Assembly (NCBI RefSeq): GCF_030268045.1
Contig: NZ_BSDC01000002.1
Location: forward strand, 248,001-312,000
Length of the DNA stretch: 64,000 nt
Reading direction: 5' to 3'
Source of the DNA: Geothrix edaphica
Lineage (GTDB): Bacteria; Acidobacteriota; Holophagae; Holophagales; Holophagaceae
Below are positions 5,690-46,479 of this stretch, in pieces. The notes beneath the pieces were generated by a model, which was not told where the DNA came from, made no database searches, and saw only the letters and a program-made list of their open reading frames with translations. The position numbers and the translations under genes are program-made. Numbering within the stretch: the stretch's first letter is position 1; each line of letters opens with the position of its first letter.

Positions 5690-6829
5690 ATGGCCATGAG
5701 CTGCGACCATCCCGACCTGCTGCCCCTGGACGAGGCACTGGCCCGGCTCTGGGCGGCCCTGCCCGCGCCGGCCTCGTCCGAGGTGCGGGCGGACCGGGAC
5801 GACCCGGCTGCGGATCTGGCGGCCATGGATGGCGTGGCGCTGCGCTCGGAGGACGGACGCGCGCCGCGCCGCCTCCTGGGCACCCTCTACGCCGGCGATG
5901 ACCCGGCGGCCTTCACGGTGACCCCCGGCACCGCCGTGCGCATCATGACCGGCGCAGCCCTGCCCGCGGGCGCGGATGCCATCCTGCCCGTGGAGCAGCT
6001 GCACGAGACCGAGGGCCAGATCCATCCCCAGGCCATCCCGGAAGCTGGCGACCATGTGCGCCGCCGCGGCGGCCAGGCCTGTGCCGGCGATCTGCTCCTG
6101 CCCGCGGACCAGCCCCTGAACGTGGCCCGCACGGCCCTGCGGGCCTGGGTGGGCCGGCCCCTGCCTCCGCCCAGACGCATCCGCGTGGCTGTGGCCTCCA
6201 CCGGGGACGAGCTGGTGACCGACCCCCTGCCCCACCAGATCCGCGATTCCAACGGCCCCATGCTGGCGGCCCTGGCCCATGCCCTGGGGGCGGACGTCGA
6301 GCGCCGTCCCGCCCTCCCCGACGATCCCGAGACCCTGGCCGCGGCCCTGCGGAACCCTGGCGGCGTCCGCATCCTGATGACCTCCGGCGGCGTGAGCATG
6401 GGAGAGCACGATCACCTGCCCGCGGTGCTGAAGGACCTGGGCGCGACCATCCTCTTCCACAAGATCCGCCTCAAGCCCGGCAAGCCCATGCTGGCGGCCC
6501 AGCTGGGCGATCTGCTGGTGCTGGGCCTGCCGGGCAATCCCGTGTCCGCCTACCTCAATGCCCTGCTGTTCCTCCCCGTCGCCCTCGCGAAGCTGGAGGG
6601 CCGAGCCCTGCCCGATCCCTGGCGCCGGGCCCGCCTCGCCGCCCCCGTGAAGCACAAGGGCGACCGCCCTCTCCTGCATCCCTGCAGCCTCGAAGACGGC
6701 CAGCTCCACCCCCTGCCCGGCAAGGGCTCCGCCGACCTCGTCACCCTCGCCCGGGCCGACGCCTTCGCCTGGATCGAGGCTCCCGGCCAGGAGGCGGGGG
6801 CCAGGGTCCGCTACCTAACGGTGATGTAG
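5690..6829 (+). CDS. moeA: Molybdopterin molybdotransferase MoeA
   Basis: MoeA inserts molybdate into adenylylated molybdopterin to make the cofactor NarG needs. The 379-residue protein shows the family blocks in order: AAMDGVAL near 45-51, GAALPAGADAILPVEQL near 88-104, STGDELV near 168-174, the MPT-binding TSGGVSMGEHDHLP near 230-243, and GLPGNPVSAYLNALLF near 280-295. Either of two ATGs six bases apart could start it. It lies 37 bp after the second narK in the same direction, so cofactor supply is probably co-expressed with nitrate transport. Confidence 0.94.
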   Translation: MAMSCDHPDLLPLDEALARLWAALPAPASSEVRADRDDPAADLAAMDGVALRSEDGRAPRRLLGTLYAGDDPAAFTVTPGTAVRIMTGAALPAGADAILPVEQLHETEGQIHPQAIPEAGDHVRRRGGQACAGDLLLPADQPLNVARTALRAWVGRPLPPPRRIRVAVASTGDELVTDPLPHQIRDSNGPMLAALAHALGADVERRPALPDDPETLAAALRNPGGVRILMTSGGVSMGEHDHLPAVLKDLGATILFHKIRLKPGKPMLAAQLGDLLVLGLPGNPVSAYLNALLFLPVALAKLEGRALPDPWRRARLAAPVKHKGDRPLLHPCSLEDGQLHPLPGKGSADLVTLARADAFAWIEAPGQEAGARVRYLTVM

Positions 6830-6918
6830 CCCCCGCTCCGAATCGCCTGCGGCGATTTGGAGCCAGGAATAGATCTCTTTCTATCTCCAAAAGGCGAAGC
6901 GTTTTGGAGCCCCCGCTC
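6828..6918. repeat. Double-hairpin element flanked by 11-bp direct repeats between moeA and the Crp/Fnr gene
   Basis: AGCCCCCGCTC occurs at 6828-6838 and again at 6908-6918, where it overlaps the regulator stop codon. Between the copies lie two hairpins: AATCGCC-tgc-GGCGATT (6841-6857) and CTCCAAAA-ggcgaagcg-TTTTGGAG (6885-6909). The first hairpin matches the core of the hairpins beside the duplicated efp and NFACT gene tails. The region can serve as a bidirectional terminator for the convergent genes. Confidence 0.6.
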
Positions 6919-7785: not shown

Positions 7786-7839
7786 CTACTTCACGCGTTC
7801 CATGAACGTCCGATCGACCGTATTCACTCGGATCCTCTT
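7786..7839 (-). repeat. Duplicate 3' tail of efp, with its own stop codon
   Basis: Read on the minus strand this stretch encodes RIRVNTVDRTFMERVK followed by TAG, the same as the last codons of efp (KIRVNTVDRTFMERVK, stop) located 104 bp upstream. Over the shared last 15 codons plus stop, all six base differences are at third codon positions and all are synonymous. It has no start codon or gene body, so it is a stranded gene end. Confidence 0.9.
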
Positions 7840-7889
7840 GGCATCGCCTCCGGCGATACGCAAGGCCTCTCTACCGAAGGGATCGGTGC
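7840..7889. repeat. Spacer between the two efp tails, with ATCGCC/GGCGAT hairpin
   Basis: The 50-bp spacer contains GGCATCGCCTCCGGCGATAC, a hairpin ATCGCC-tcc-GGCGAT followed by ACGCAAGGC. The spacer behind the NFACT gene contains GGTATCGCCAGGGGCGATAC followed by ACGCGAGAC. The same core hairpin occurs after the Crp/Fnr gene. Confidence 0.7.
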
Positions 7890-8456
7890 CTACTTCACTC
7901 GCTCCATGAACGTGCGGTCCACCGTGTTCACTCGGATCTTTTGCCCCGCTTCCATGTAGGGCGGCACGCCCACGGTGATGCCGTTGTCCAGCTTGGCGGG
8001 CTTGTACGAGCCCGTGGCGTTGGCGTTCTTCATGACCGGGTCGGTCTCCACGATCTCCAGCACCACGCTGGGGGGCAGGGTGGCGCCCATGGCCTGGCCC
8101 TCGTAGAACTCGATCTCCACCTGCATGTTGGGCTCGAGGAAGACCATATCGTCGCCGAGGATGTCCTTGCTGACCTCGAGCTGCTCATAGGTCTCGTTGT
8201 TCATGAAGACGAGGTGGTTGCCGTCATCGTAGAGGTATTCCAGCATGTGCTGCTCGAGGCTGGCCTTGTCCACCTTGTCGGAGCTGCCGAAGCGGTTCTC
8301 CCGGTTGATGCCGTCCTTGAGGCGCTTCATCTTCACCTGGACCCGGGCCGGCAGGTTGCCGGGGGTCTGGTGCTCGACGCTGATGACGCGGCAGAGCTCG
8401 TTCTCGAAGTTGACGATCATCCCGGCGCGGACCTGAGTGGCGAGGATCAGAGGCAT
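7890..8456 (-). CDS. efp: Elongation factor P
   Basis: EF-P binds between the P and E sites of stalled ribosomes and relieves arrest at proline runs. The 188-residue length and three beta-barrel domains are standard, ending in the KIRVNTVDRTFMERVK tail. The domain I tip loop that carries a modified lysine or arginine in known EF-Ps reads TPGNLPA here, with Asn34 at the usual position. It must therefore work unmodified or by another chemistry. The ATG at 8456 follows GGGAGCTTCCC. The last 16 codons are duplicated downstream. Confidence 0.95.
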   Translation of the reverse strand: MPLILATQVRAGMIVNFENELCRVISVEHQTPGNLPARVQVKMKRLKDGINRENRFGSSDKVDKASLEQHMLEYLYDDGNHLVFMNNETYEQLEVSKDILGDDMVFLEPNMQVEIEFYEGQAMGATLPPSVVLEIVETDPVMKNANATGSYKPAKLDNGITVGVPPYMEAGQKIRVNTVDRTFMERVK

Positions 8457-36777: not shown

Positions 36778-37047
36778 AGAACGCCAAGCCAAGCCCGACA
36801 ATGCCGCGATGAAGCCAGGCGGGATGCACCGCAAGAAAGGGCCCGCAGGGCAACGTGGTTCGTTGTTCAAGGGGCCTGACGCCGCGGGGCGCCCGCCTGG
36901 CTTCATCCCTCCGGGCGAGGGGTGGCGGGCGTCGCGATGCCGCGTCACGCTCGTCGCGCGTAGTACCCGCTACGCCTCGACTCGCGTTCCTCGCCTCACT
37001 CGCCCGGCACCCCTCGCGCGGCAGTGTGGGGCTTGGCTTGGCGTTCT
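36778..37047. repeat. 270-bp element with perfect 19-bp terminal inverted repeats
   Basis: AGAACGCCAAGCCAAGCCC at 36778-36796 is repeated inverted at 37029-37047. Inside, GATGAAGCCAGGCGGG (36808-36823) is inverted at 36892-36907, and GCGAGGGGTG is inverted near 37009-37018. The element therefore can fold into nested stems. It has no coding capacity and lies 28 bp upstream of the nuoE start. It could be a non-autonomous mobile repeat (MITE-like), a structured leader RNA, or both. Confidence 0.8.
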
Positions 37048-44771: not shown

Positions 44772-44876
44772 CTACGGCTTGGGATAGACGCGGATCCCTT
44801 CCCACTTCCTCTCGGTATCGCCAGGGGCGATACGCGAGACACCGCTCGCGCTCCGATGACCCGTCTTCGATTCAGG
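44772..44876 (-). repeat. Duplicate 3' tail of the NFACT gene plus hairpin spacer
   Basis: On the minus strand 44772-44807 encodes KWEGIRVYPKP then TAG. The real gene end 105 bp away encodes KWIGIRVYPKP then TGA, and the 21 bases before the stop codons are identical. The spacer carries ATCGCC-agg-GGCGAT followed by ACGCGAGAC, closely matching the efp spacer. The duplicate stop is 4 bp from the convergent SPOR gene stop. Confidence 0.88.
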
Positions 44877-46340
44877 TCACGGCTTGGGATAGACGCGGAT
44901 GCCAATCCACTTTTTGAGGATCACCTTGCCTGGCGCGAAGCCGCGGGGCTTGCTGATGTCGGCGATGCGGGCGAGGTGGACCTCCACCTTGCCGCCGTCC
45001 CGGGCCTTGCTGTGGTAGGCGGCCAGCTCGGCGGCGCGCTCCAGCACGTGGCGGGGCAGCTCGCTCAGCTTGTCGGGATTGCGGATCACCACGTGGCTGC
45101 CGGGCACGCTGGCCACGTGCAGCCAGAAGTCCATGTTGTCAGCCACCTTGAAGGTGAGCTGGTCGTTCTCCGCGTCGCCCTTGCCGATGAGCACCTCGAA
45201 GCCGTCCACCATGACGCTGCGGAAAGCCGCGCCCTTGCCGTCCTTGCGCTTGCCTTCTGCCTGCATCCGCTTCGTCCCCTTGTCTTTCGGGGCGCCGTGC
45301 CCCCTCGCCGCGCCCTGTCCCTTCGGTTGTCGCGCAGAGGGCGGTTCCGGCGCAAGGCCTCCCGCTTCGGCCTCCATCCGCTTCCCCCAGGCGGCCCGCT
45401 CCCGCGCGAGCTCCGCCTCGAGTTCAGTCACGCGGGCCAGACCCCGCTCGGCCTTCTTGGCCGCGGTGAACCAACCCTGGACGGCGGTCTCGGCACTCTT
45501 CCCCTCGGGCAAGGAGACGCGCCCCCCGTCCAGCAGCACCGCCTCGCCCGTGACGCCCTTCAGGCGGTAGAGCTCCGCCGCCAGACGCTGGGCCTGGGCC
45601 TTCAAGGGCAGCACGCCCTGATGCTTCGCCCGGTCCCGGGCCAAGGCCAGGGCCAGCCGGTCCAGCCGGGCGGCCTCGGCCTGCCGCTTGCGCTCGGCCG
45701 CCGCCTTGGCGGGTCCGAGGATGAGCTCCTCCGCCCGGGCCTCGGACCAGGCGCGGTGGCGGTCCAATAGGCCGCCCTCGCCGTCCAGCACCTCCGGGAG
45801 CTCGCCCGCCAGGGCGCGCTCGAGATCGGAGCCCCAGCGTTCCCGCCAGCGGCGGAAGGGCGGCGGCTCCTCCTGCGGCTCCGGCGCCGCGGCCGGAAAA
45901 GGGGAACCCAATCCCAGACGGGAGAGAGGCACATCCAGGCCGTCCACCCGGATGCCGGCCCGGCCCGGGATGGCCTGGAAGGCGAGGCGCAGGGTCTCCA
46001 GCCGCCCGGTGATGGCCCGCCGCTGGAACACGAGGCCCAGCCAACGTTCCCGCGGATCCCCCTCCACCGCCTTCAGCCGGGCCCCCGAGAGCAGGGGACC
46101 CCAGATCTTCGCGCTGTCCCTGGGCGCCTCGGCCTGTAGGCGCGTCCAGGCGGGATGGGCCGCCCCCAGCAGCCACAGCTCGGGCTTCGGATGGAGCAGG
46201 AGCACCCAGCCCTCGGCGGCTTTCCGCCCGGCCCAGCGCAGGCCCAGGGCCCGGCCCGAGGCCCAGGCCGATTCCAGGGGGATCTCGCCCCGCTCGCGGA
46301 GCCAAGCCCGCCCCAGGGCCAGGATCAGGGGAGCATCCAC
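44877..46340 (-). CDS. NFACT-family protein (FbpA/RqcH relative)
   Basis: The protein has the N-terminal NFACT-type region, a long charged coiled-coil middle (about 190-330), a basic low-complexity link, and a C-terminal NFACT-R domain (VDGFEVLIGKGDAENDQLTF, DNMDFWLHVASVPGSHVVIR). In other bacteria RqcH binds stalled 50S subunits and adds alanine tails. The N-terminal part is divergent, so that activity is not assured. A GTG at 46340 with AAAGGTGAG upstream is the preferred start (487 residues); an ATG at 46391 is possible. Its tail is duplicated downstream. Confidence 0.82.
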   Translation of the reverse strand: MDAPLILALGRAWLRERGEIPLESAWASGRALGLRWAGRKAAEGWVLLLHPKPELWLLGAAHPAWTRLQAEAPRDSAKIWGPLLSGARLKAVEGDPRERWLGLVFQRRAITGRLETLRLAFQAIPGRAGIRVDGLDVPLSRLGLGSPFPAAAPEPQEEPPPFRRWRERWGSDLERALAGELPEVLDGEGGLLDRHRAWSEARAEELILGPAKAAAERKRQAEAARLDRLALALARDRAKHQGVLPLKAQAQRLAAELYRLKGVTGEAVLLDGGRVSLPEGKSAETAVQGWFTAAKKAERGLARVTELEAELARERAAWGKRMEAEAGGLAPEPPSARQPKGQGAARGHGAPKDKGTKRMQAEGKRKDGKGAAFRSVMVDGFEVLIGKGDAENDQLTFKVADNMDFWLHVASVPGSHVVIRNPDKLSELPRHVLERAAELAAYHSKARDGGKVEVHLARIADISKPRGFAPGKVILKKWIGIRVYPKP

Positions 46341-46479
46341 GGACTCACCTTTCCCTGTTCTTTCCACCCGACGCTGGCCATGATGGGGCATCCTCCCTGT
46401 CCCAGCATCCCACGCCCGGCCCGGGGACGATCAGGCTCGCAGTTCCCACCTGGCTCCACTTCCACCGATACTGGACCCC

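Follow-up and report, generated by a model that had tools for sequence, protein, structure and literature searches.

A short palindrome between duplicated gene edges in Geothrix: a probable small mobile repeat with a long target duplication

The window, the whole stretch of 64,000 nucleotides from a contig of Geothrix edaphica (NZ_BSDC01000002.1, positions 248,001 to 312,000), contains two genes whose 3′ tails are duplicated, efp (elongation factor P) and an NFACT-domain gene. At each of them a hairpin is located between the duplicated gene tail and the working tail. The features of both loci are given below, where H denotes the palindrome, T′ the stranded copy of the gene edge, T the working edge and S the spacer from H to T.

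7786..7834, minus strand: T′ of efp, last 15 codons and stop; reads IRVNTVDRTFMERVK and stop, 88% identity to 7890-7938, offset 104
7836..7866, plus strand: H of efp, the 31-bp palindrome TCTTGGCATCGCCTCCGGCGATACGCAAGGC; model match 59.1 bits
7867..7889, no strand: S of efp, the stretch from H to the working stop codon; it can be aligned, by eye as well, with the spacers at efp in genomes G009, G015 and G020
7890..7938, minus strand: T, the working efp 3′ end; EF-P C-terminal domain PF09285
7890..8510, minus strand: efp open reading frame, with a putative start codon
44772..44809, minus strand: T′ of the NFACT-domain gene; RKWEGIRVYPKP and stop, compared with KKWIGIRVYPKP and stop in the working tail, offset 105
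44810..44840, plus strand: H of the NFACT gene, TCTCGGTATCGCCAGGGGCGATACGCGAGAC; model match 57.3 bits
44841..44876, no strand: S of the NFACT unit; alignable among occupied species
44877..44914, minus strand: T, the working 3′ end of the NFACT-domain gene (gene 44877-46391; PF05670 NFACT-R_1)

The hairpin core ATCGCC-N3-GGCGAT was matched three times in the window, each time exactly, in a search that allowed one mismatch (0.36 expected; three matches were reached in 0 of 100 shuffles). The cores at efp and at the NFACT gene occupy 7843-7857 and 44817-44831. A preliminary description of this DNA had stated that the two spacers differ at three or four bases before a common continuation, and this was borne out: the hairpin 20-mers differ at four positions, one stem base and three loop bases, and both continue with GC-R-AG. 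The two copies of the efp tail (49 bp) differ at six positions, all of them third codon positions, and both encode the same peptide. When folded as DNA, the efp hairpin gave −7.1 kcal/mol (z −2.0) and the NFACT hairpin −12.2 kcal/mol (z −5.5).

The third core, at 6842-6856 beside a Crp/Fnr gene, had been described as part of the same common sequence. The core itself is exact, but its flanks differ (CTCCGAATCGCC...GGCGATTTGGAG), the bulged G typical of H is absent, it scored 22.6 bits against the H model compared with 52-63 bits for the six sites from which the model was built, and an adjoining repeat above background was not found (best score 11.5). The hairpin on the Crp/Fnr side is therefore a weak outlier to the H family, and the original observation stands for efp and the NFACT gene only. 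Two unlike hairpins, at 6838-6862 (CTCCGAATCGCC-TGC-GGCGATTTGGAG) and 6886-6910 (CTCCAAAAGGCGAAGCGTTTTGGAG), lie here, with a forward open reading frame that ends at 6829 on one side and the Crp/Fnr gene, convergent to it, on the other. Elsewhere in the window, 36778-36808 and 37017-37047 form a 31-nt inverted repeat, 94% complementary, with its arms 208 nt apart.

Across the whole genome the exact core ATCGCC-N3-GGCGAT occurs eight times, the reversed control pattern not once. Six of the eight have a longer directional element in common, and the H model was built from these six sites; the eighth core, at C2:634290, is without the flanking element, and none of the 25 model matches falls on it. 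H is a 31-bp imperfect palindrome of approximately TCTYGG-YATCGCC-NNN-GGCGATA-CG-CRAGRC, with conserved ends TCTYGG and CRAGRC in the alignments and a bulged G which makes it directional. The model returned 25 raw matches at E ≤ 1 in its own genome, many of which were opposite-strand echoes or weak, and 14 distinct sites at E < 0.001. In a model search of 41 genomes, H was found in all 25 from the genus Geothrix and in none of the 16 that represent other genera of the class. Exact-pattern stretches in named genomes numbered 90; among the 80 of these that were listed with labels, all were labelled Geothrix, Holophagaceae or Acidobacteria, bar one. That stretch, of 8 kb and labelled Deltaproteobacteria, has only ~220 bp that match the loci collected here, at 89-90%. 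A scan of viral contigs with one exact H pattern gave no match.

The H stem is maintained by compensatory change. In the 125 forward-strand rows (98 distinct) of a 150-row alignment, 1251 of 1273 stem cells were paired, and 57 cells were changed on both sides, compared with a mean of 9.3 and a maximum of 17 in 500 shuffles. Over all 150 rows 98.2% of cells were paired and 64 were changed on both sides (10.0 when shuffled), figures that are to be read with the inclusion of opposite-strand echoes, the fitting of the alignment to the model and the inflation of covariation counts by related rows. G-U cells numbered two in the inner stem, which had 17 non-pairing cells, and 21 in the outer stem, mostly at the outermost pair; the scarcity in the inner stem is more in keeping with an exact palindrome in DNA than with an RNA. 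The stem variants were tied to locus (mutual information 1.36, 0.43 when shuffled, reached in 0 of 2000), which suggests that H is mostly inherited or homed gene by gene, and hopping between genes was not seen. Identity as a terminator, a promoter or an Rfam RNA was considered and set aside: a simple scan for a GC hairpin followed by a T run found no terminator-like site at the efp or the NFACT locus, and Rfam gave three matches at E ≤ 1 over 20 loci, one a tRNA and two under the gathering score, none of them on H.

To assess duplication beside H, copies were sought in the order T′, H, S, T on the strand of H, at a score of at least 15 and within a reach of 260 bp, with the copy assumed to lie left of H; control anchors were treated by the same procedure 400 bp away. 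A duplication was detected at 132 of the 231 distinct H sites fetched and at 1 of 421 control anchors. This agrees with the proposal of one repeat family at independent gene ends with a link to tail duplication, and the outcome that would have spoken against it, a common terminator unconnected with duplications, was not seen. The offset from copy to original was 102-108 bp in 92 of the 132 duplicated sites; the other 40 had offsets of 154-159 (16 sites), 170 (4), 178 (2), 67-69 (5), 111-116 (5), 139 (1) and 205-228 bp (7), and the 111-116 bp cases inspected have longer hairpin loops. One 67-bp case (L103) lies slightly under the score threshold. A mirror search, for the right side of H repeated at its left, was positive at 56 of 231 sites. 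Five of these stand alone and the other 51 belong to the 132, so that at 51 of 132 sites the repeat, single or arrayed, extends over the right side of H too. Tandem arrays of two to six units occur. Arrays with a period of 67-69 bp, that is H plus ~37 bp or half the usual duplicated length, were seen at L111 842-1225 (G006 C7) and in L112.

The remaining 99 of 231 sites were without duplication at this threshold, and many of these are inside a dispersed palindrome of ~300 bp. This palindrome, with H at its middle, accounts for most of 41 H sites (L094, L123, L152 and others), in which context gene-edge duplication was not seen; in some members the ends are inverted and resemble AGAGTGCCTAACAAAA, and the right flank resembles AAACTGATATCT. 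At L021 1501-1542, L124 797-837 and L164 865-905, H lies inside, or close to, the loop of another long palindromic repeat (such as CACCACCAAG...CTTGGTGGTG), as though hairpin loops were targets too.

Outside arrays, the cases represent at least 21 gene clusters, a lower bound since clusters were merged by sequence similarity and a few contain more than one gene. Judged by open frame and third-position GC, 12 are gene starts and nine are gene ends, and the notion that 3′ ends are the sole target was thus not upheld. In 16 of the 21 clusters at least one member has a detectable copy starting no more than 12 nt from a start or stop codon. The cluster genes confirmed by domain are efp, the NFACT-domain gene and a nucleotidyltransferase here called manC; polA, rpsT, uppS, folP, rdgB, BCCP, other biotin carriers, a pdhC-like gene and a ThiF-like gene were named by eye from sequence. 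The T′-H-T arrangement is shared by efp, polA, rpsT, BCCP and the NFACT genes. At L009, L020, L038 and L049, viewed by eye, the stranded start, H and spacer together make a short open reading frame upstream of the gene start, whose stop just precedes or overlaps the working start codon and which could be a translated leader.

The junction on the gene side is C-N-T-Y-T-T. With one member taken per cluster, the gene base aligned to the first base of H is T in 21 of 21 clusters, C stands at −5 in 19 of 21 and T at −3 in 18 of 21; two biotin-carrier clusters are hit at one and the same sequence, CTGCATCTTCATG. That H is a coding insert in frame was also considered, and rejected: its frame is constant at gene starts (by eye), but the unit lengths do not keep the frame. 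The constant frame was not counted as evidence of coding, because the CNTYTT motif with codon bias or high third-position GC can explain it.

The extent of the duplication was read from the freshest sites. At the NFACT gene of G056, the freshest of all, 73 bp at 97% identity lie on either side of the 31-bp H and include 35 bp past the stop codon. At rpsT, G015 repeats 70 bp at 89% and G001 71 bp at 83%, the terminator, as judged by eye, included, and at manC of G052 the upstream region is repeated too. These sites are read as a duplication, so that the ~105-bp unit is composed of H (31 bp) and ~73 bp. The idea that S derives from the flank of T′ by decay gave no general signal (mean score over 55 sites 3.10, control 3.15) and was accepted on the fresh sites; the length of 73 bp therefore rests on a few fresh sites and on the constant offset. 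The non-coding halves of the duplication presumably diverge over time. Of the differences between T′ and T over all clusters, 320 of 618 were at third positions; for seven well-framed clusters, selected afterwards, the figure was 105 of 153. Some copies of T′ have decayed by frameshift (efp of G005, NFACT of G048). In L201, L202 and L203 short tail leftovers (CCCAAGCCGTGA or one base off) lie past the NFACT stop codon with no H adjoining; such leftovers stand beside empty or occupied sites and are probably traces of earlier tail duplications.

Orthologous loci were compared for the presence of H, manC and NFACT loci being the best 30 from about 40 genomes. By eye, H was present at 5 of 29 efp, 10 of 30 NFACT and 13 of 30 manC loci, and two further occupied NFACT loci were excluded from the counts as they had been added knowing that H was there. 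Calls by script were lower (efp 4, NFACT 9, manC 11), with degenerate or variant copies missed and one manC locus too short. On a tree of 19 genomes the by-eye labels required 3, 4 and 5 changes for efp, NFACT and manC, compared with shuffled means of 3.8, 4.6 and 6.4; these values were reached in 400, 705 and 421 of 2000 shuffles, so there was no significant clustering. With the script labels the changes numbered 3, 3 and 4; manC came nearest to clustering (131 of 2000). Most of the loci examined were thus empty, a pattern of presence and absence which the idea of a tiny mobile element fits.

The manC loci suggest a further component. Empty manC loci begin with a K-D-S or K-E-S head in 12 of 16 cases and with other types in four. 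In six occupied loci T′ has a native-like K-type head, K-D in G000 (this genome), G005, G008, G024 and G047 and K-A in G011, and the working start is of another type. From these sequences the working manC start appears to be a replacement, and the stranded T′ native-like, in 6 of the 13 occupied loci. Among the seven others, the two heads resemble each other in G022, G052 and G054 and are non-K in G014; the locus is an array in G009 and G015 and is cut off in G012.

Candidate partner enzymes were sought in 31 genomes. Y1_Tnp (PF01797) was not found in this genome and was present in 3 of 31; the suggestion of a RAYT partner was not borne out, this family being absent here and from 28 of the 31. 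RVT_1 and Cas1 were likewise not found in this genome and were present in 9 and 4 of 31, and Y2_Tnp, for which the control genomes gave no match either, was not found here and was present in 8. Each of the four was rejected as the partner of H, being missing from some H-carrying genomes. With the four families not found here and patchy in the genus, the putative enzyme would be unknown or lost.

These data suggest that H is probably a very small, non-coding and non-autonomous mobile palindrome of Geothrix which generates an exceptionally long target duplication, of ~73 bp, and spreads by recombination. The data support several steps. H is located directly 3′ of C-N-T-Y-T-T, on the strand on which it reads CTYGG, and its fresh trace is a direct duplication of ~73 bp flanking it, giving T′-H-T and a repeat unit of ~105 bp. 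In the duplicated sites examined the gene runs on 3′ of H, and the duplicated block mostly holds a whole gene start or end. The location at gene edges is explained by the survival of those insertions that leave the gene intact, and a special preference for 3′ ends is not needed. In older sites the non-coding half is unrecognisable and the coding half still alike; the unit is also seen in tandem, and most orthologous sites examined are without it. At manC several species appear to have a replaced working edge, the T′ left behind being of the native type. The enzyme of the REP/RAYT system recognises a single-strand hairpin, and a trans-acting enzyme may recognise H in this form, join it to CNTYTT on one strand and open the other strand ~73 nt away, fill-in then producing the duplication. 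The block of H, spacer and T may pass between species by ordinary homologous recombination through matching flanks. Against the mobility of H, transposition was not observed and a donor copy was not identified, the contrast between native and replacement starts is missing in 7 of the 13 occupied manC loci, and to our knowledge a target duplication as long as ~73 bp has no precedent.

The main rival to a mobile H is that H is old and fixed at gene edges, where the ~105-bp T-H unit expands or contracts through slippage or unequal recombination, empty sites are losses, and occupancy differs through loss and allele exchange. This would account for the tandem arrays of two to six units, for stem variants that are bound to a locus, for spacers that align across species within one locus, for the tail remnants that adjoin some NFACT sites, empty ones included, and for empty manC sites with a non-K head (as in G013) or K-T (G016). 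It leaves unexplained, however, the same H at nearly the same offset in unrelated genes and their common CNTYTT target, and also the fresh duplications containing the recipient's own non-coding DNA (G056, G052) unless conversion homogenises the copies. We regard a fixed H as rather unlikely; it was graded slightly higher, and the mobile H slightly lower, because the hybrid pattern holds at 6 of the 13 occupied manC loci and some of the NFACT loci counted had been chosen. A different question is whether T′ is still used, some cells excising H-S-T, as DNA or as RNA, so that the gene body is joined to T′ in a reversible switch with both edges under coding selection. The third-position bias of 105 of 153 in the picked clusters, against the ~50% expected for a decaying T′ compared with a constrained T, would agree with such a switch, as would the start codon, frame and K-type head retained by manC T′ starts in six species and the fact that exact joining at CNTYTT would restore the gene. 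Over all clusters, however, third positions account for 320 of 618 differences (52%), which is what a T′ free of selection would give; frameshifts have decayed some T′ copies, and recent replacement by alleles of other species would give the same pattern. A switch of this kind is quite improbable.

The preliminary description had also proposed a remnant of natural transformation, in which DNA of relatives is joined by homology on one side and illegitimately on the other, with H as the preferred breakpoint. Its recombination component fits the hybrid manC starts, and the same third-position bias (105 of 153 picked, 320 of 618 in all) resembles that between functional alleles of two species, but random joins would be expected to produce neither a constant offset of ~105 bp nor a conserved, covarying H, and copies nearly identical to the recipient's own edge and flank also speak against it. 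As a whole it is retained as a very unlikely rival. It is more improbable still that H is a functional RNA or terminator selected at gene edges, with the duplications incidental. The hairpin is stable and shows compensatory changes, as such an RNA would; the simple terminator scan was negative at both window loci, 12 of 21 clusters are gene starts, G-U pairs are nearly nil in the inner stem (two cells), duplication is linked to H at 132 of 231 sites and 1 of 421 controls, H is missing from the same gene in most species examined, and in 0 of 20 loci did Rfam match H. From the interpretation given earlier for this DNA, the single family and its link with duplication are kept, and exclusive targeting of 3′ ends, membership of the Crp/Fnr-side hairpin and a RAYT partner are not supported.

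If H is mobile, a more specific and tentative possibility, in which we place limited confidence, is a new integration reaction by which an enzyme places a 31-bp hairpin DNA into CNTYTT with ends staggered by ~73 bp (seven helical turns) and by other spacings elsewhere, which builds arrays resembling an inside-out CRISPR and through which starts and ends of core genes are exchanged by bacteria of different species. Judged from the offsets, the other spacings may be 37, 123-126, 139 and 147 bp, some of them near whole or half turns. Three things that are usually separate would be joined here, a minimal palindromic repeat, a very long duplication and the replacement of core-gene starts or ends. 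Replacement of the edge is indicated for manC starts, and the efp, polA, rpsT, BCCP and NFACT genes have the same arrangement. If this is true, the ends of bacterial core genes would be exchangeable as small mobile units, as in fungal mitochondria. The many gene clusters, the empty and filled sites and the target motif offer a clean system for finding the integration enzyme, and in annotation it should be noted that gene-tail repeats or short open reading frames beside Geothrix core genes can be stranded edges.

CRISPR arrays grow by the extension of block-payload-block, a payload of ~31 bp being flanked by copies of a target block. H is likewise a payload of ~31 bp between copies of a block, with the roles reversed: the payload is constant and the block locus-specific, and Cas1 was not found in this genome. 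Boxes of the attC type were not seen by eye at H when compared with the attC consensus. H resembles Rickettsia palindromic elements (RPE) and bacterial MITE-like repeats in being a palindrome inside or adjoining genes. RPE, of ~150 bp, are fused in frame with open reading frames (PMC2229807, PMC10969869); H units of 102-108 bp are generally not multiples of three, and at gene ends T has its own stop codon. MITEs have terminal inverted repeats and target duplications of 2-30 bp, and the fresh duplications of H are 70-73 bp. For YPAL the corresponding account gives 3-26 bp (PMC2229807), and the ~73 bp of H lies far above this, as it far exceeds the target duplications in the portions of the comparison literature covered. 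In a literature search of titles and abstract openings, with few subscription papers, a description of such a gene-edge element was not found, and H is here filed as a new variant among small palindromic mobile repeats.

In appearance H is closest, by analogy, to REP sequences and REPINs, which are imperfect palindromes of 20-40 bp, several per genome, with a GTAG or CGTC tag and the RAYT enzyme (TnpA-REP); the word stem 'duplicat' is absent from the main text of that paper (PMC3733652). H is also short, imperfectly palindromic and multi-copy, as its 14 distinct sites in its own genome (E < 0.001) and its covariation indicate, but its ends TCTYGG and CRAGRC are without either tag, the Y1 transposase was not found in this genome, and H is at gene edges with a duplication of ~73 bp. 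In its mode of action H would be most similar to the mORFs at the 3′ ends of fungal mitochondrial genes, described for Allomyces atp6 and for Glomus atp6, atp9, cox2 and nad3 (PMC3630166). According to that study, an inserted mORF supplies the gene with a foreign end and makes it a hybrid, the native end being stranded beyond the insertion; a horizontal origin is proposed, and the inserts contain a homing endonuclease gene of several hundred bp, the cases reported there being 3′ ends (PMC3630166). The H unit of ~105 bp has no room for an endonuclease gene, and its sites include gene starts along with gene ends; at 6 of the 13 occupied manC loci, however, the sequences point to the same outcome, in which a foreign gene edge would have come in and the native edge been stranded, and by this analogy H may work much as the mitochondrial gene-end hybrids do, minus their endonuclease gene.
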